From a virus: a stretch of DNA of 34,724 nt. The translations under genes were made by a program, and so were the position numbers. Below, piece by piece: positions 16,632 to 34,724 of the stretch (its first letter is position 1; each line of letters starts with the position of its first letter). The stretch lies in the IMG/VR virus record IMGVR_UViG_3300021961_000309, positions 1 through 34,724 of that record. One strand, given 5' to 3'. Under the pieces are notes generated by a model that did not search any database, was not told the origin of the DNA, and saw nothing but the letters and a program-made list of their open reading frames with translations.

Positions 16632-17316
16632 TATCTTGGATAAAGGATACATTGAATTGGTGGATACACTTGGTGATGATTTAACACCAGTGAATGCAGC
16701 TCGTGTATCATTCGGTGGTAGAAGTGAAACCTTTGAAGAGAAAGATAGAAAACTATCTAAATTCTTAATCAAACATAAACACTTTTCACCATTCAGACAC
16801 CAACATTGTATGTTTATAATTAAAGCACCAGAGTTTGTGATGAGACAATGGTATAAGCACGTGGTTGGAATTGAAACAACAAGTTCACACGTTACTAAAG
16901 ACCATGCTTGGAATGAGATTAGTGGTAGATATGTTCCATATGATGAGTTCTACGAACCAACAGAATTTAGAAAACAATCAGAAGATAACAAACAGGCAAG
17001 TGATGGGTTAGTGGAGAATCAAAAGAATGCAAAAAAGGTTTGGGAAATGGGACAGAATGTTGCAATCTCTTGTTACAGACAATTATTAGATATGGGTATG
17101 GCAAAAGAACAAGCCAGAAGTATCTTACCACTTACAGTCTATACAAAAGTTTGGTGGACAGCATCATTTCAAAGTATTATGAACTTTATAGAACTACGAG
17201 ATGAGGCAACATCTCAAGTTGAAATACAAGAATATGCCAGAGGATTAAAAGAGATAATGTTAAAAACATTTCCTGAAACAACAAAATTATGGAGTGAGAT
17301 TTATTTAGAAAAATGA
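16621..17316 (+). CDS. thyX: Flavin-dependent thymidylate synthase ThyX
   Basis: ThyX methylates dUMP to dTMP using methylene-tetrahydrofolate, FAD and NADPH, supplying dTTP for phage DNA. The 231-residue length is normal. Visible family features: AARVSFGG near 26-33, HFSPFRHQH at 54-62, the substrate/flavin motif region at 75-104, and the C-terminal EQARSILPLTVYTKVWWTAS at 163-182 followed by NFIELR and SQVEIQEYA. The usual RHRxxSxNExSxRY signature is altered: KHV (79-81) replaces RHR, and about 12 extra residues separate it from NEISGRY (98-104). The retained NE, S101 and R103 argue that it is active. A strong SD precedes the start. The rimK-like gene overlaps its end by 4 nt. Confidence 0.95.
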   Translation: MKIDILDKGYIELVDTLGDDLTPVNAARVSFGGRSETFEEKDRKLSKFLIKHKHFSPFRHQHCMFIIKAPEFVMRQWYKHVVGIETTSSHVTKDHAWNEISGRYVPYDEFYEPTEFRKQSEDNKQASDGLVENQKNAKKVWEMGQNVAISCYRQLLDMGMAKEQARSILPLTVYTKVWWTASFQSIMNFIELRDEATSQVEIQEYARGLKEIMLKTFPETTKLWSEIYLEK

Positions 17317-18206
17317 GTATCAATGGTTGGATAATACATAAAAAAGAATTAGGAGAAAACCACGAAGTCGAACGATTGGTTGAAGAATTTAACAAACAAC
17401 ATATTAAGATTCGTGTAGTGAATCCACAAGATGTTGATATATTTGTAAATCGTGATGATAGAAAATCTATCATTGTCGAGGGGAAACAAGTTCCATTACC
17501 AGATTTCGTTTTACCGAGAACCGGTAGTGGAACGACTTATTTTATCAAAGCAATCATCAGACACTTAGAAAGATTGGGTGTTACTTTGATTAACGGAAGT
17601 GATGCGATTGATAATGTTAAAGATAAATTATATTCACAACAAATATTAGGTGGTTCTAATTTACCAGTTCCAAACACAATGTTGGTTAAACACCCGATTG
17701 ATGTGGACTTGGTAGAAAAGAGTATGCAATATCCTTTGATTATTAAAACACTAAGTGGTAGTTATGGTAGTGGTGTGTTTATGGTTGAGAAGAGAAAACA
17801 ATTTGTGGACTTGGTCAAAATGGCAGAACTATCTAATTCTTATTACAATATTATTATACAAGAATTTATAAAAGATTCTTTTGGAAAAGATTTGAGAGTA
17901 TTTGTTATCAATGGTAAAGTCGCTGGGTGTATGATGAGACAATCAATCGACGGAGACTTTCGTGCCAACTTAACTCGTGGTGGAGAAGCAATCCCTTATC
18001 AGATTGACGAAGACATTGAGTGGATTGGTGGTGAGTGTGCCAGACTTTTAGATTTGGATATAGCAGGTGTAGACTTGTTGTTCCACGAAGATAAATATAT
18101 GATTTGTGAGGTAAATTCAGCACCAGGTTTTGAAGGTATGGAAAAATATACCAAGATAAACATCGCAGAAAAAATAGTTAATTTTGTAAAATACAAATTA
18201 GGTTAA
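17313..18206 (+). CDS. RimK-type ATP-grasp ligase
   Basis: RimK-family enzymes use ATP to join an amino acid, classically glutamate, to a carboxylate; E. coli RimK adds Glu to the C-terminus of ribosomal protein S6. The 297-residue length is typical. Visible ATP-grasp elements are PLIIKTLSGSYGSGV (141-155, Lys145 and the Gly-rich loop), IIQEFI (181-186), GKDLRVFVINGKV (191-203), ANLTRGG (218-224), GVDLLF (252-257) and CEVNSAPGFEG (265-275, Glu266 and Asn268 as metal ligands). All look intact. ATGA overlap with thyX indicates one operon. The substrate could be S6, another host protein or a peptide; it cannot be read from the sequence. Confidence 0.92.
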   Translation: MSINGWIIHKKELGENHEVERLVEEFNKQHIKIRVVNPQDVDIFVNRDDRKSIIVEGKQVPLPDFVLPRTGSGTTYFIKAIIRHLERLGVTLINGSDAIDNVKDKLYSQQILGGSNLPVPNTMLVKHPIDVDLVEKSMQYPLIIKTLSGSYGSGVFMVEKRKQFVDLVKMAELSNSYYNIIIQEFIKDSFGKDLRVFVINGKVAGCMMRQSIDGDFRANLTRGGEAIPYQIDEDIEWIGGECARLLDLDIAGVDLLFHEDKYMICEVNSAPGFEGMEKYTKINIAEKIVNFVKYKLG

Positions 18207-23083: not shown

Positions 23084-23470
23084 ATGAAAAAATGGTTATT
23101 ATTAATATTTTTTGTTAATGTTTTATTTGCACAAATAAAAATAGAACCTCATGAAAGATATAATTTAAAAAAAGTAGGTCATAAAACTTATGAATTAGTT
23201 TTAAGTGATATAAAACAAACTCTTGTTAGATTAACTGGTGAGGTTGAATCTGATGAACATGAAAGAGTAGTATGGTCTACTGAGAAGAAATTTAAATGGA
23301 GTAATGGTATAACATCTGATGACTTTAAAGTTGTTAATCCATATACATATTCCAACAATGGTGTAGTTAATACAATGTTTGGACCTTTACCTGAAATGAA
23401 AGGTAAGACTATTAAGATTACAGCTAAGTATAAAGAGTTCAAAGATACTATTTTTATAAAACTTAAATAA
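23084..23470 (+). CDS. Secreted or periplasmic protein with signal peptide, unknown
   Basis: The product is 128 residues. MKKWLLLIFFVNVLFA is a classical Sec signal peptide with a likely signal peptidase I site after FA-Q. The mature ~112 residues are beta-rich, Lys-rich and cysteine-free (YELVLSDIKQTLVRLTGEVE, KGKTIKITAKYKEFKDTIFI), consistent with an Ig-like or other small beta-sandwich, though no family is recognised. It begins 3 nt after the previous stop. Export from an infected cell suggests a role at the envelope, such as altering phage adsorption; that is inference. It is the last gene before the structured RNA region. Confidence 0.78.
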   Translation: MKKWLLLIFFVNVLFAQIKIEPHERYNLKKVGHKTYELVLSDIKQTLVRLTGEVESDEHERVVWSTEKKFKWSNGITSDDFKVVNPYTYSNNGVVNTMFGPLPEMKGKTIKITAKYKEFKDTIFIKLK

Positions 23471-23561: not shown

Positions 23562-23967
23562 AAATCGGAAAGTACAGAGAGTAATTAACTCTGTATGGAA
23601 TTGGCAGAATAATGGGTATCCTTTAGAAGCCCATAACGCAATCCAAGATTAGTTCGTGGTGAACCTACAAAGCCGAATGGTGGGATAGTTGAGACATCAA
23701 TAATCTAATGTACTTGAAGAAAAACAATAGAAACGATTCTATTGACCTTGTTGTGGGTAAGGGTAAAACTGAAATCCCACTTTATGGCTGAACCAATCTA
23801 AACTTGGAGAGATAAAGCAATAATACAGGTGTTGTAACCACTTCAATGAGATTAACCATCTTGAGAAGAATCATCGTAACTGATGGGTATTAGGTACAAG
23901 GTACTAAAAAATCCAAGCTTTAAGTTGTGAGTAATCGTTAATCTCACATTCCCAAGATTTCCAATTT
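23562..23967 (+). ncRNA. Candidate large structured non-coding RNA (~400 nt)
   Basis: The 690-nt gap between genes has no convincing ORF but much pairing potential. A closing helix joins AAAT-C-GGAAA (23562-23571) to TTTCC-A-ATTT (23958-23967), one mismatch. Inside are TACAGAG/CTCTGTA (23573-23579, 23589-23595), ATGGG/CCCAT (23612-23616, 23630-23634), CAAG-ATTAG/CTAAT-CTTG (23644-23652, 23705-23716), an 8-bp hairpin CAATAGAA/TTCTATTG with ACGA loop (23725-23744), GTGGG/CCCAC (23753-23757, 23776-23780), CTTGGA/TCCAAG (23803-23808, 23912-23917) enclosing CCATC/GATGG (23856-23860, 23882-23886), and TGTGAG/CTCACA (23926-23931, 23943-23948). A terminator follows. The base composition is richer in G and C than nearby intergenic DNA. 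No tRNA, tmRNA or intron core is recognised; the class is unknown. Strand is taken from the terminator and neighbours. Confidence 0.62.
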
Positions 23968-28587: not shown

Positions 28588-29955
28588 ATGAGTATGAGTG
28601 AATCATTAGTAAAATATGGTACTGGTTTTCAAAGTAAGATAATTACATCACTTCTTGTGGATAACAAGTTTACCAAACAAGTTATTGATATTTTAGAAGT
28701 GGGGTATTTTGATTCCGATAGTAATAAATTCTTGATTAGTTCTATCAAGGATTATTTTTCCAAATATAAAAAAAATCCAACAATGGAAGCAATCAAAGTT
28801 CTGATTGATGATGTAGAGAATGGTGCATTAAAAACAGCTATTGTAGATAGTTTAAGAAATGCATGGCAACATCGTGAGAGTAATGATTTAGAATTTGTTC
28901 AAGAAAAAACATTAGAGTTTTGTAAGAATCAAGTTGTTAAGAATGCTATTATGGATTCGGTAGAATTGTTAGAAGTACAGAAGTATGATGAAATAAAAAC
29001 CATTATAGATAAAGCCATGACCGCTGGTATGGAGAGAGATATTGGACACGAATACATTACAGGTTTTGAAGAACGAATGAACCAACAATCAAGAAATACT
29101 ATGCCAACACAATGGGATAGTGTTAATGATTTAATGGATGGTGGATTAGCTGGTGGTGAACTTGGAGTTGTAGTTGCACCTGCTGGTATTGGTAAATCAT
29201 GGACACTTCAGGCTATTGGTGCACATGCAGTTGCAAAAGGATTGACTGTAATTCATTATACATTAGAGTTAAATGCTCAATATGTAGGGTTAAGATATGA
29301 TACAATAGTAAGTGGACAACCAACAGGTAACTTACAATATTATAAAGAAGAAGTTTTAAGTAAGATAAATAAATTAAAAGGTGAGTTGATAATAAAATAT
29401 TATCCAACAAGAACTGCAAGTGTAAACACTTTAACTGCACATTTACAACAATGTGTATTACAAGGTATCAAACCTGATATGGTTATTGTGGATTATGCAG
29501 ATATTATGAAATCAACACAACACTTCACAGAAAAAAGACATCAAATAGGTCATGTGTATGAAGAGTTAAGGGGAATGGGTGGTGAATTTGATATACCGAT
29601 ATGGACTGCTTCACAAGCAAATCGTTCATCATTAGAGGAAGATGTGATTGATGCAAGTAAAGTATCAGAAGACTATTCAAAGGTGATGACAGCTGATTTT
29701 GTTATGAGTATGAGTAGAAAAGTGGAAGATAAGATAGCAAACACAGGTCGTTTTCATGTGATTAAAAATAGATTTGGGCCAGATGGAATAACCTTTCCAG
29801 CAACCATAAATACCAATACAGGTTTCATTCAGATTTATGAAACCAACACTCAAGGTGGTAAAGAAGTACAAGGAAAAATGAATAATGCTGATGAATATAT
29901 TAGAAAAACATTGGCACAGAAGAAGAAAGATTTTGATGGTGAGGGGTTTGAATAA
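28588..29955 (+). CDS. Replicative DNA helicase, DnaB/gp41-like
   Basis: This hexameric helicase would unwind the fork 5'-3' and recruit primase. Of 455 residues, the N-terminal ~150 are helical (ESLVKYGTGFQSKIITSLLV), as in T4 gp41. The RecA-like motor begins near 175 with Walker A APAGIGKS (197-204), the sensor-like HYTLELNAQYVGLR, Walker B MVIVDYADIM (298-307) and WTASQANRS. A C-terminal charged tail ends the protein. The best SD-like sequence (AAGGAAAG) is ~15 nt upstream, so the second ATG, two codons in, may be used. It is followed by the control region of the reductase gene. Confidence 0.93.
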   Translation: MSMSESLVKYGTGFQSKIITSLLVDNKFTKQVIDILEVGYFDSDSNKFLISSIKDYFSKYKKNPTMEAIKVLIDDVENGALKTAIVDSLRNAWQHRESNDLEFVQEKTLEFCKNQVVKNAIMDSVELLEVQKYDEIKTIIDKAMTAGMERDIGHEYITGFEERMNQQSRNTMPTQWDSVNDLMDGGLAGGELGVVVAPAGIGKSWTLQAIGAHAVAKGLTVIHYTLELNAQYVGLRYDTIVSGQPTGNLQYYKEEVLSKINKLKGELIIKYYPTRTASVNTLTAHLQQCVLQGIKPDMVIVDYADIMKSTQHFTEKRHQIGHVYEELRGMGGEFDIPIWTASQANRSSLEEDVIDASKVSEDYSKVMTADFVMSMSRKVEDKIANTGRFHVIKNRFGPDGITFPATINTNTGFIQIYETNTQGGKEVQGKMNNADEYIRKTLAQKKKDFDGEGFE

Positions 29956-30081: not shown

Positions 30082-32097
30082 ATGGGAGAACATAAGTTTA
30101 AGTTATCAGAAAATTTTGTAAGTAAGTACAAAAGAAAGAAAGCACCATTCGGTTTTAATGGATTAGGTGAGTTAGTTTATATGAGAACCTATTCTCGTAT
30201 CAAAGAGGATGGTAAAAATGAGAGATGGTGGGAAACCGTACAAAGAGTTGTAGAGGGAACTTATTCAATGCAAATGAATTGGATTGAATCACATCAATTA
30301 GGTTGGAATCCATGGCAAGCACAAAAATCAGCACAAGAAATGTATGATAGAATTTTCAATATGAAGTTCTTACCACCAGGTCGTGGTTTATGGGCGATGG
30401 GAACAGCAATCACAGAAGAAAAAGGATTGTATGCCGCACTAAATAATTGTGCATTTGTATCCACAAAAACAATCAAAGATGATTACGCAAAACCATTTTG
30501 TTTCTTAATGGATGCAAGTATGTTAGGAGTTGGAGTAGGATTTGACACTAAAGGAGCGGGGGAAATTATCGTTAAAGGTGTTGATAAAAATAGAGAAACT
30601 ACTTATGAAATACCAGATACAAGAGAAGGTTGGGTGGAATCACTAAGATTATTATTAGAAAGTTATTTCCACAAAACACCAATAGTTAATTTTGATTATA
30701 GTTTACTTAGATTAGCAGGTGAACCAATTAAAGGATTTGGTGGAGTATCATCAGGACCAGAACCATTGGAAGAAGTTCACGGAGATATTAGAAAAGTATT
30801 AGAAAAGAATAGTGGAGAACCAATCACAATCACAACCATTGTAGATATTATGAATCTAATCGGTAAATGTGTTGTAGCAGGTAATGTTAGAAGAACTGCT
30901 GAGATTGTATTTGGAGACCCACATTCAGAAGAATATTTAGATTTAAAAAACTATAAAGTAAATCCACACAGAGACCAATATGGTTGGACATCAAACAATT
31001 CAATATTTGCAGAACTCGGTATGGATTATACAGAAGTTTCAAAACGAATCGTAGATAATGGAGAACCAGGTTTAGCTTGGTTAGAAAACATGAGACACTA
31101 TTCAAGAATGAAGAATGGTGGTGATGATAAAGACCATAGAGCAATGGGTGGTAATCCTTGTTTGGAACAAACATTAGAAAGTTATGAACTATGTTGTTTA
31201 GTGGAAACCTTTCCAGATAATCACGACGATTTAGAAGATTATAAACGAACACTAAAATATGCTTATCTATATGCAAAAACCGTTACACTCGGTAGAACTC
31301 ATTGGAGTGATACAAACAGAGTGATGTTAAGAAACAGAAGAATTGGATGTAGTGTAAGTGGTGTTGCTCAGTTTATTACACATAGAGGATTAAATGAGTT
31401 AAAAACTTGGTTAGAAGACGGATATGACCATATACAAGAATGGGATGATGTTTACTCAGATTGGTTTGCAATACCAAAGAGTATCAAAACCACAAGTGTA
31501 AAACCAAGTGGAACTGTATCATTATTAGCAGGTTCTACACCAGGTTTACATTATCCTGAATCAAGATTTTATATCAGAAGAATTAGGTTATCAATTAATT
31601 CGGAACTAATAGAACCTTTGAAAAAGGCAGGTTATAAAATTGAACCTGCCTTTGGTTCAGAGGATTCAACATTAGTAGTTGAAGTACCAGTAGATGTTGG
31701 TGAGGGAATCAGAACTGCAGAAGAGTTATCCATATGGGAACAATTCTCATTAGCTTCATTCCTACAAAGACATTGGGCTGATAACCAAGTAAGTTGTACC
31801 GTAACATTCAATCCTGAAAAGGAAGGAGATGAAATACCAAATGTATTGAATTATTTCCAATATCATCTAAAGGGTATATCATTACTACCAAGACACGATT
31901 GGGGAGCATATCCACAAATGCCTTATGAAGCAATTGAGGAAAAAGAGTATAATAAACAAATTAAAAAATTAGGTAAGTTGAACTTTGGAGTAATTAAAAA
32001 CGAAGAAGCAGAAATAGATAAATTCTGTAACAATGACTCTTGTGAAATACCAAGTTTGACTGGGGATAACGACGACCAAGAATTTGCAAATGGTTAA
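30082..32097 (+). CDS. nrdJ: Class II (adenosylcobalamin-dependent) ribonucleotide reductase
   Basis: It reduces ribonucleotides to deoxyribonucleotides using a radical generated from adenosylcobalamin, with or without oxygen. The 671-residue length and layout match the monomeric, Lactobacillus leichmannii-like triphosphate reductases. Key residues: Cys123 in NNCAFVSTK (redox pair), the N358-P-C360-L-E362 triad carrying the thiyl-radical Cys and the Glu, Cys371 in ESYELCCLVETF as the redox partner, the phosphate-binding loop KPSGTVSLLAGSTPG, and the C-terminal swinging pair Cys649/Cys654 (CNNDSC). SD AAGGAG is well placed. All catalytic residues are present, so it should be active. It needs B12 from the host or the medium, which bears on the receptor gene downstream. 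Confidence 0.94.
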   Translation: MGEHKFKLSENFVSKYKRKKAPFGFNGLGELVYMRTYSRIKEDGKNERWWETVQRVVEGTYSMQMNWIESHQLGWNPWQAQKSAQEMYDRIFNMKFLPPGRGLWAMGTAITEEKGLYAALNNCAFVSTKTIKDDYAKPFCFLMDASMLGVGVGFDTKGAGEIIVKGVDKNRETTYEIPDTREGWVESLRLLLESYFHKTPIVNFDYSLLRLAGEPIKGFGGVSSGPEPLEEVHGDIRKVLEKNSGEPITITTIVDIMNLIGKCVVAGNVRRTAEIVFGDPHSEEYLDLKNYKVNPHRDQYGWTSNNSIFAELGMDYTEVSKRIVDNGEPGLAWLENMRHYSRMKNGGDDKDHRAMGGNPCLEQTLESYELCCLVETFPDNHDDLEDYKRTLKYAYLYAKTVTLGRTHWSDTNRVMLRNRRIGCSVSGVAQFITHRGLNELKTWLEDGYDHIQEWDDVYSDWFAIPKSIKTTSVKPSGTVSLLAGSTPGLHYPESRFYIRRIRLSINSELIEPLKKAGYKIEPAFGSEDSTLVVEVPVDVGEGIRTAEELSIWEQFSLASFLQRHWADNQVSCTVTFNPEKEGDEIPNVLNYFQYHLKGISLLPRHDWGAYPQMPYEAIEEKEYNKQIKKLGKLNFGVIKNEEAEIDKFCNNDSCEIPSLTGDNDDQEFANG

Positions 32098-32121
32098 AAG
32101 ATTCACATACCGCTGGCAGAC

Positions 32122-32145
32122 GACACACCAGGATAAAAATGTGTC
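32122..32145 (+). other. Small hairpin between nrdJ and the receptor gene
   Basis: GACACA (32122-32127) pairs with TGTGTC (32140-32145) over a 12-nt A-rich loop. There is no U tract, so it is not a terminator. It could be an mRNA processing or stability element. The spacer shows no promoter, which leaves nrdJ and the receptor gene on one transcript. Confidence 0.35.
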
Positions 32146-32174
32146 ATTCACAAGTAAACAACAAGGAGATGATT

Positions 32175-34724
32175 ATGAATTATCGTAATCTTATCGCATC
32201 AGTAGTACTTATGACTGGATTGTTCTCACAATCTATTCACGCTGTTATTACTGATGTTGACTCAAATCCACTTGAGGGAGCTAATGTTGTAGTTGTTGGA
32301 ACTAATATGGGTGCAGTATCGAATGAAGTAGGTATCGCACACATTGACATTCCAGCAGGAACCTACGATGTAACTGCTTCTTTCATTGGTTACTCTTCTC
32401 TAACACAATCAGTTGTAGTTGGAGAGGGTATGGCTACATTAAATTTCATTATGGATATTAATGTGGTTTCCCTATCAGATGTAGAGGTGTTAGCATCTCG
32501 TGCATCTGTAACAACACCTGTGGCATACACTAATGTTACTAAAGAAGAAATGGACTTGAGATTAGGTTCTCAAGATATTCCAATGATTCTTAACACAACA
32601 CCAAGTGTTTACGCTACTCAACAAGGTGGTGGTGCGGGTGATGCTCGTATCAACATTCGTGGTTTTAATCAAAGAAATGTTGCAGTAATGATTAACGGTG
32701 TTCCTCAAAACGACATGGAAAATGGCTGGGTATACTGGTCTAATTGGGATGGTGTAGCAGATGTTGCACAATCTATCCAAGTTCAAAGAGGATTATCTGC
32801 AGTCAATCTGGCAACACCTTCTATTGGTGGAACTATGAATATAATTACCGACCCAACATCATTTGAAAAGGGTGGGAAGTTCAAACAAGAAGCTGGTGAA
32901 GGTGGTTTTCTTAAAACTACTTTTAACTACAATACTGGTCTATTATTAAATGACAAGTTAGCTTTAAGTGGGACAATTGTTCGTAAAACTGGTGATGGAA
33001 TAATCGATGGAACTTGGACTGACGCTTGGGCATACTACTTTGGTAGTTCATATGCTGTAAGTGATAAACAAAGGTTCGAGCTTTATGCAATCGGTGCTCC
33101 ACAAAGACATGGACAAAATCTATACAAACAGAATATTGCTACTTACTCACAAGAGTTAGCTGGTGATATTGAAGGATATGATACTGATGCATTTGCAGAA
33201 GGTAACAAATTCGAAACTGAAGCGGGTAGATTGTTCAATCAAAATGTCGCACCTATTGACCCATCTTATACCGGAAAACAATATTGGTATATGTATGGAG
33301 CAAACACGACAAATAGATTCAATAAGAACTTTTTGAACGAAAGAGAAAACTTCTTCCACAAACCATTAGTGAATTTAAATCACTTCTTAACTATCAATGA
33401 TAAAACAAGATTAAGTTCTGTTTTATATTGGAGTGGTGGTTCAGGTGGTGGTACTGGTACATATGGTAGTGTATCAAGAACACCAGCAGTTGAAGGAGAA
33501 AGATGGTATGCAAGTTCACCTTGGCAATGGGATTGGAATGCAGAAATTGCACAAAATTCTGATAACATTGACGAGAACTTCTCAACATCTGAAAATCGTT
33601 CAACAGGAATTCTTAGAAATTCTATTAACAGACAAGATACATATGGTTTGATTTCTAAATTAAATTATAAAGTAAATGATAATTTAGAACTACAAACTGG
33701 TATCGATTGGAGAACTGCTAAAATAGAACACGCTCGTGAAGTTCGTGATTTATTAGGTGGTGATTACTATGTTGATTATGCAGACGATAACTTTGAAGAT
33801 GGTAAAAAAGTTGGATTAGGTGATATAATTGCTTATCACAATGAAACAACTGTAGATTGGTTAGGTGGATTTGTTCAGGCAAACTACACTACTGATAAAC
33901 TAAATCTTTATGGTATGGGTGGAATCTCATCTATTGAGTACACATATCAAGATTGGTTTACCGTTGAACAAGAGTTAATTTCTGCAGACCCAATACAAAC
34001 TTACCAAGTTAAAGGTGGTGCATTATATAATATAAATGATAATCTTGGATTATTCATTAACACAGGACTTGTAGAAAAAGCTCCTATATTAGATAATGTT
34101 ATCTACTTTGATGGTACAGTTGCATCAGACCCAGCGAACGAAAAGTTCGCACACAATGAGATTGGTGCAAACTTCGGTACACAGAAACTTGGAGTTAGAG
34201 TAAGTGCTTATGATACTGATTGGCAAGATAGAAACCTTACAAAATCTGTAACAACAGGTCAAGGTTCATCAGGTGATACTGATATTATCTTCCTAAGAGG
34301 TGTAAATCAAAAGCATCAAGGTCTTGAAGTTGAAACTAAAGTGAAACCAAATGATATGGTTGAACTTGATTTCATTGCTTCATTCGGTAATTGGAAATTC
34401 GATGGTGATGCTGAAGGAACTTATCAGGAAACTGATTATAATTCCGAAGGTCAAGCAATCGGATACACAACAACCGAATACCAATACGCTCTTAACGGAT
34501 TATATGTTGGAGATATGCCACAAACATCTTATATTTTAGGTGTTACTCTTAAACCTGTTAAAGGATTAAGATTACAGGCATTCTACAAAACATATGATAA
34601 GAACTATTCTGATTGGTCACCATCAGCTCGTGAATATGACGGAACTGCTGATGATGCCGATAGAGCTCAAGTTTGGGAAGCTCCTGGCTACTCAAAACTT
34701 GATTTACACGCATCATATAAACTT
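32175..34724 (+). CDS. TonB-dependent outer-membrane receptor (3' partial)
   Basis: 850 codons are open to the right edge without a stop. The ATG at 32175 has SD AAGGAG 6 nt upstream; an in-frame ATG two codons earlier touches the SD. Residues 1-23 are a signal peptide (LIASVVLMTGLFSQSIHA). Residues ~24-95 form a carboxypeptidase-regulatory-like domain (TDVDSNPLEGANVVVVGTN, AGTYDVTASFIGY). A TonB-box-like stretch (SLSDVEVLASRA, ~99-110) precedes the plug (DIPMILNTTPSVYATQQGGG, INIRGFNQRNVAVMINGVPQ, NDMENGWVYWSNWDG, GTMNIIT), and a beta-barrel with many aromatic-ended strands follows. Such receptors import siderophores, cobalamin, sugars or peptides using TonB energy. The layout is Bacteroidota/Marinimicrobia-like. 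It is a cellular gene family rarely expected in phage; the substrate is not readable. Confidence 0.93.
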   Translation, partial: MNYRNLIASVVLMTGLFSQSIHAVITDVDSNPLEGANVVVVGTNMGAVSNEVGIAHIDIPAGTYDVTASFIGYSSLTQSVVVGEGMATLNFIMDINVVSLSDVEVLASRASVTTPVAYTNVTKEEMDLRLGSQDIPMILNTTPSVYATQQGGGAGDARINIRGFNQRNVAVMINGVPQNDMENGWVYWSNWDGVADVAQSIQVQRGLSAVNLATPSIGGTMNIITDPTSFEKGGKFKQEAGEGGFLKTTFNYNTGLLLNDKLALSGTIVRKTGDGIIDGTWTDAWAYYFGSSYAVSDKQRFELYAIGAPQRHGQNLYKQNIATYSQELAGDIEGYDTDAFAEGNKFETEAGRLFNQNVAPIDPSYTGKQYWYMYGANTTNRFNKNFLNERENFFHKPLVNLNHFLTINDKTRLSSVLYWSGGSGGGTGTYGSVSRTPAVEGERWYASSPWQWDWNAEIAQNSDNIDENFSTSENRSTGILRNSINRQDTYGLISKLNYKVNDNLELQTGIDWRTAKIEHAREVRDLLGGDYYVDYADDNFEDGKKVGLGDIIAYHNETTVDWLGGFVQANYTTDKLNLYGMGGISSIEYTYQDWFTVEQELISADPIQTYQVKGGALYNINDNLGLFINTGLVEKAPILDNVIYFDGTVASDPANEKFAHNEIGANFGTQKLGVRVSAYDTDWQDRNLTKSVTTGQGSSGDTDIIFLRGVNQKHQGLEVETKVKPNDMVELDFIASFGNWKFDGDAEGTYQETDYNSEGQAIGYTTTEYQYALNGLYVGDMPQTSYILGVTLKPVKGLRLQAFYKTYDKNYSDWSPSAREYDGTADDADRAQVWEAPGYSKLDLHASYKL

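Follow-up and report, generated by a model that had tools for sequence, protein, structure and literature searches.

A TonB-dependent receptor as a core gene of T4-like marine phages that probably infect SAR406 bacteria

The receptor gene and its phage neighbourhood

The window considered here is the whole of an IMG/VR virus record (34,724 bases, linear and probably a fragment), and profile searches give it the gene content of a T4-like myovirus, including an S74-ended tail fibre, tail sheath, tail tube, baseplate hub, thymidylate synthase, UvsX, a DnaB-like helicase and a ribonucleotide reductase (RNR). A gene for a TonB-dependent receptor (TBDR) closes the window on the forward strand (32175-34724), starting at an ATG at 32175 and running for 850 codons with no stop before the contig end. 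The initial annotation had described this 850-codon frame, which is indeed open from ATG to contig end, but the gene itself is longer: its 3' end is cut off, with about 62 codons absent by comparison with the 912 residues of its closest relative (L002), and full-length relatives have no internal stops. The Shine-Dalgarno sequence that had been noted is AAGGAG (32163-32168, +), 6 nt before the ATG. The encoded protein begins with a signal-peptide-like N-terminus, followed by a CarboxypepD_reg-like domain (residues 21-105, 32235-32489, +; PF13715/PF13620, E 1e-12, above the curated cut-off), a TonB-box-like motif, DVEVLAS, placed by eye and conserved in phages and hosts (residues 102-108, 32478-32498, +), a TonB plug domain (residues 113-220, 32511-32834, +; PF07715, E 4e-15, 56.7 bits against a curated cut-off of 23.9) and, after the plug, barrel sequence, and the receptor architecture proposed at first sight is borne out, with the TonB box as a candidate motif and, for the barrel, through the AlphaFold model of the L002 receptor described below.

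As the initial annotation also had it, the genes upstream on the same strand are phage replication genes, namely UvsX, the DnaB-like replicative helicase (28588-29955, +; phrog_19), which synteny places in the same conserved gene block, and, directly before the TBDR, nrdJ (30082-32097, +), encoding a monomeric adenosylcobalamin-dependent (class II) RNR with a match to 1L1L. The risk of mis-calling a class I enzyme has been raised before (PMC6370689), and is ruled out here by a score of 350.7 bits against the RTPR equivalog model, whose cut-off is 340.05. Base and codon use is close to that of the neighbours, as had been judged by eye, with a GC of 0.364 and GC3 of 0.209 in the TBDR frame and 0.342 and 0.201 in nrdJ; GC3 in eight bacterial receptor genes that were measured lies between 0.21 and 0.38.

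Elsewhere in the window, a manA RNA motif (RF01745, 59.2 bits, gathering threshold 55.2) occupies 23752-23952 (+) between small genes and the gene at the gp32 position, and a RimK-type alpha-L-glutamate ligase, above its curated subfamily cut-off, is encoded at 17313-18206 (+). Beside uvsX and the gp32-position gene, four related loci (L439-L442) carry cassettes with prepilin-like genes (PF07963 in the one tested), a membrane-anchored protein, a secreted protein and a TonB C-terminal-domain protein; the counterpart region of the window encodes a different, 128-aa secreted protein (23084-23470).

A core gene with its own leader RNA

The contig of L002, the closest relative, matches the window DNA at 99.5% identity over 12 kb spanning the nrdJ-TBDR junction, and continues through a complete TBDR of 912 aa, to which the window TBDR is 99% identical, into a phage DNA polymerase gene, so the impression that the receptor is not mis-joined DNA holds and the question of whether phage genes follow it is answered. 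Between TBDR and polymerase in L002 lies a GC-rich hairpin with a T-rich tail that looks terminator-like by eye, and an automatic terminator scan of that region did not list it. A receptor scan of viral contigs returned 321 relatives, and among the 78 best loci that include DNA before the receptor, 74 have nrdJ directly upstream of it (counted by hand). To avoid the circularity of a receptor bait, nrdJ and the phage DNA polymerase served as extra baits: the receptor was found 61-93 nt behind nrdJ in 66/66 viral loci with enough downstream DNA, and upstream of the polymerase in 67 of 70 loci examined. The three exceptions are a contig that begins 113 nt before the polymerase and two with divergent polymerases (44-46% identity), one of which offers merely 171 nt of upstream DNA. 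Because both baits recover the receptor next door, the TBDR, single-copy in each contig, is a core gene of this T4-like marine phage lineage, and the nrdJ-receptor junction recurs as the initial annotation had suggested looking for. Adjacency to nrdJ is not obligatory, as the receptor is kept away from it in three loci (L044, L071 and L074). That the end of the contig is misassembled or derives from host DNA, as might have been suspected from a frame that runs off the contig and from cellular relatives, is ruled out by this synteny with independent baits, by phage genes on both flanks, by a shared phage-specific leader RNA and by phage-like codon use.

Several further observations concern this neighbourhood. 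Many contigs, the window among them, break inside the receptor gene. Synonymous divergence of the receptor is often far below that of the flanking genes (pairs L013/L022, L010/L013, L045/L053 and L002/L003; for L013/L022, 0.23 in the receptor, 0.86 in nrdJ and 1.62 in the polymerase), as if the receptor were exchanged between phages. A glutamine synthetase gene (PF00120) adjoins the receptor in L028, L029, L058-L060, L067 and L070, and nrdJ lies in three pieces, probably through introns or inteins, at 35432-39968 of G009, the contig of L004.

The leader of the TBDR contains an H-type pseudoknot of 33 nt (32113-32145, +), in which stem 1 pairs CTGG (32113-32116) with CCAG (32128-32131), or CAGG with CCTG as a variant, and stem 2, interleaved with it, pairs GACACA (32122-32127) with TGTGTC (32140-32145), while the third loop is A-rich and an A-rich tail leads onward to the Shine-Dalgarno sequence. 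Across 58 distinct leader sequences, 96.2% of stem cells pair, double changes occupy 48 cells against 13.1 after shuffling (0/500), and pairing falls to 18-52% in slid controls; every phage leader examined has the covarying pseudoknot. The motif occurs 288 times among the collected loci, and 277 occurrences pass a scripted test for a downstream receptor start; the remaining 11 precede, by eye, receptor starts that are truncated or missed by the script. An element spread genome-wide is thus ruled out, since all occurrences precede the TBDR, and the pseudoknot stays with the receptor in the three loci where nrdJ is not upstream. It is absent from the leaders of host receptor genes, and no Rfam 15 covariance model matches 32098-32175 up to E 1. 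A blind search for pseudoknots that allowed loose stems gave no information, as chance hits dominated it. The T4 gene 32 leader likewise consists of an H-type pseudoknot followed by an unstructured A-rich stretch up to the Shine-Dalgarno sequence, but the element described here precedes a receptor gene and not a single-strand-binding protein gene. It may control receptor translation or mRNA stability. A pairing in competition with the pseudoknot is conceivable within 32098-32145, between a TTCACAT further upstream and ATGTG of stem 2; pairing of this type appears in the plain minimum-energy fold and is absent from some leaders.

Bacterial origin and transport features

The nearest cellular relatives of the phage TBDR belong to Ca. 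Neomarinimicrobiota (SAR406, Fidelibacterota), at up to 70% identity, with other FCB phyla next at 45-50%. A maximum-likelihood tree places every phage receptor, together with a single MAG gene, in one clade (SH-aLRT 100) inside SAR406, and the phage clade again falls within SAR406 when the tree is repeated with more bacteria; the comparison with bacterial receptors that had been proposed at the outset therefore points to a SAR406 bacterium as the likely donor and, by the same tree, to SAR406 as probably the host of the phage lineage. SAR406 TBDRs are 60-70% identical to the phage receptor over the full length and share its domains and plug residues, whereas the phage genome context, the pseudoknot leader and a lower GC set the phage gene apart. 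Judged by its neighbours, which are an aminotransferase-like gene and a second receptor in tandem, the MAG gene (L082) is bacterial, and it has a host-type leader. It groups with the phage receptors, either beside or inside their clade, and may be the closest bacterial relative known so far or possibly a gene transferred back.

Selection on the phage receptor is purifying (dN/dS 0.08-0.27), and the features expected of a transporter are intact. All 80 plug positions that are invariant in close hosts have the same majority residue in phages; the TonB-box-like (D)(V/L)EVLASRA is conserved at its expected place in phages and hosts, with EVLASRA invariant among phages; and the barrel loops vary no more among phages than among hosts and show no diversification. 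AlphaFold predicts the full-length L002 receptor as a plug-filled beta-barrel (pLDDT 84, pTM 0.78), and a fold search with this model gave 382 PDB matches at E <= 0.001 with TBDRs on top (TM up to 0.82 by target), among them PqqU, Fiu and FhuA, a ranking that is generic for TBDRs and names no substrate. TonB is encoded in 9 of the 10 SAR406 genomes searched, and energy should therefore be available to the phage receptor. Furthermore, a small protein (about 107-122 aa) that combines a signal-peptide-like start with a TonB C-terminal domain (44.6 bits against a cut-off of 24.6 in the one tested) is encoded in 5 of the 14 long phage contigs; its length leaves no room for the anchor and linker that a full TonB has. 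The window fragment encodes no such protein. The TBDR is thus host-derived, fixed in phage genomes and under selection, which is one of the marks of an auxiliary metabolic gene.

The reading that I prefer, with a probability of roughly 0.55, is that this core gene of SAR406 phages was acquired from the host and encodes a working importer during infection, tuned by the pseudoknot. The gene would have come from a SAR406-type bacterium, probably once; the receptor would be made during infection, inserted into the host outer membrane and energised by host TonB for import, and the phage-specific leader would set its output. The initial annotation, which named neither a substrate nor a host and did not mention the leader pseudoknot, had offered nutrient import or altered adsorption by competitors as the purpose of such a receptor, and putative import is the better supported of the two, since the transport features are kept and the loops undiversified.

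The other proposal, in which the receptor, joined in some phages by the secreted protein with a TonB C-terminal domain, takes the place of host receptors or jams them and so keeps out superinfecting phages or bacteriocins, is rather unlikely. TBDRs are common phage entry points, the fold matches include FhuA bound by T5 pb5 and FhuA blocked by the exclusion lipoprotein Llp, and a TonB domain with neither anchor nor linker, as in the five contigs, could block contact between TonB and receptor; in E. coli, TonB domains placed on their own in the periplasm inhibit transport. However, a decoy or modified receptor should have loops that are altered or evolve fast, and its plug should be relaxed, while here the loops are conserved and the plug is intact, and most contigs lack the TonB-like gene.

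What the receptor may import

Gene neighbourhoods bear on the substrate. In 14 bacterial loci from KSB1, Calditrichota, Ignavibacteriota, Balneolota, Bacteroidota and Chlorobiota, a same-strand gene for a type I phosphodiesterase/nucleotide pyrophosphatase of about 400 aa (PF01663; E about 1e-90 in the four tested by Pfam) lies behind the receptor orthologue, as the next gene in 12 of them and behind a second receptor in the other two, and these orthologues are scattered over the receptor tree. Within SAR406, a deoxynucleoside kinase gene (PF01712, E 1e-57) follows the receptor by 64-175 nt in L083 (= G021), L125 and G123; it also occurs behind a receptor with a partial match in G154, and in G023 it lies 1.5 kb upstream. 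A rough estimate puts the chance of three such adjacencies in 72 genomes at ~1e-5, ignoring relatedness. The phage receptor itself sits between ribonucleotide reductase and DNA polymerase. Together these neighbourhoods and the phage gene position suggest, by association, import of a nucleotide-derived compound or other organophosphate, and I would tentatively name nucleosides, nucleotides or another organophosphate as the most likely substrate, which would feed dNTP and phosphate supply. Against this, the phosphodiesterase neighbours come from phyla other than that of the host, adjacency to the kinase is rare (4 shared contigs for 72 genomes with the receptor), and a search for the kinase in phages found none. 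In most SAR406 genomes no same-strand partner recurs downstream of the receptor, the rare kinase apart. The bolder version, in which a widespread lineage of SAR406 phages carries a fixed, pseudoknot-gated nucleotide or nucleoside importer in its DNA-replication module, sometimes with a phage TonB-like protein, and the lytic phage scavenges extracellular nucleic-acid precursors, is doubtful.

The receptor is unlikely to import a different nutrient, be it an iron-siderophore complex or a glycan. Most characterised TBDRs do import such compounds, the closest solved folds include siderophore receptors, and carbohydrate uptake has been proposed for the SusC-like receptor of the marine megaphage Mar_Mega_1 (PMC9723777); however, the fold ranking is generic, and membership of the SusC/RagA family (TIGR04056) is rejected, as the phage protein is unmatched by the model and host orthologues reach 45-66 bits against a cut-off of 368.25. 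No SusD-like partner was noticed among the recurrent receptor neighbours.

The tight linkage to a true class II RNR invites the thought that the receptor supplies cobalamin to the adenosylcobalamin-dependent NrdJ next to it, and its plug bears a weak similarity to BtuB, yet vitamin B12 import looks unlikely. The BtuB equivalog model gives 31.5 bits against a cut-off of 836, and the receptor is retained where nrdJ is not adjacent. Cobalamin riboswitches are present in 11 of 12 SAR406 genomes, with a receptor-like gene alongside in the ten loci read, and the five such genes checked by Pfam are TBDRs with at most about 25% identity to the phage TBDR family (N-terminal part), while no cobalamin riboswitch was found near seven host orthologues of the phage receptor. 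B12 is an unlikely substrate because the host riboswitch lies before a different receptor and because a PduO-type adenosyltransferase is absent from 14 phage contigs.

Outer-membrane transporters have been seen in marine phages before. The marine megaphages Mar_Mega_1 and LR745206 carry a SusC-like TBDR thought to aid uptake (PMC9723777), but the LR745206 match to the phage receptor spans merely 172 residues at 33% identity, a marine-phage SusC model, the only full-length viral fold match, is 12% identical, and those genes were reported as accessory metabolic genes in single genomes, not as core genes, with no leader RNA described. Two contigs of a human-faecal phage collection encode receptors about 31% identical over the full length. 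The outer-membrane transporter FadL has a different fold and its transport is TonB-independent. Its gene, fadL, is likewise carried by marine phages, as reported from marine viromes (PMC4053976), but is not a core gene as far as reported. A literature search of partial coverage turned up no SAR406 phage with a TBDR, no TBDR with the status of a core gene, and no mention of the leader RNA or of a TonB_C partner, and so, although phage TBDRs as such were reported before, the core-gene status, the RNA element and the TonB-like partner appear to be new.

Metabolic genes of phages are usually sporadic and their products intracellular, whereas here a large transporter of the outer membrane is as fixed as DNA polymerase, with its own conserved RNA element, in a lineage whose likely host phylum is abundant in the ocean and largely uncultured. 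The pseudoknot combined with the TBDR provides a marker for finding these phages in metagenomes, and the gene neighbourhoods suggest a substrate for a receptor family common to many FCB bacteria. This makes it testable whether lytic phages rebuild the nutrient gates of their hosts during infection.
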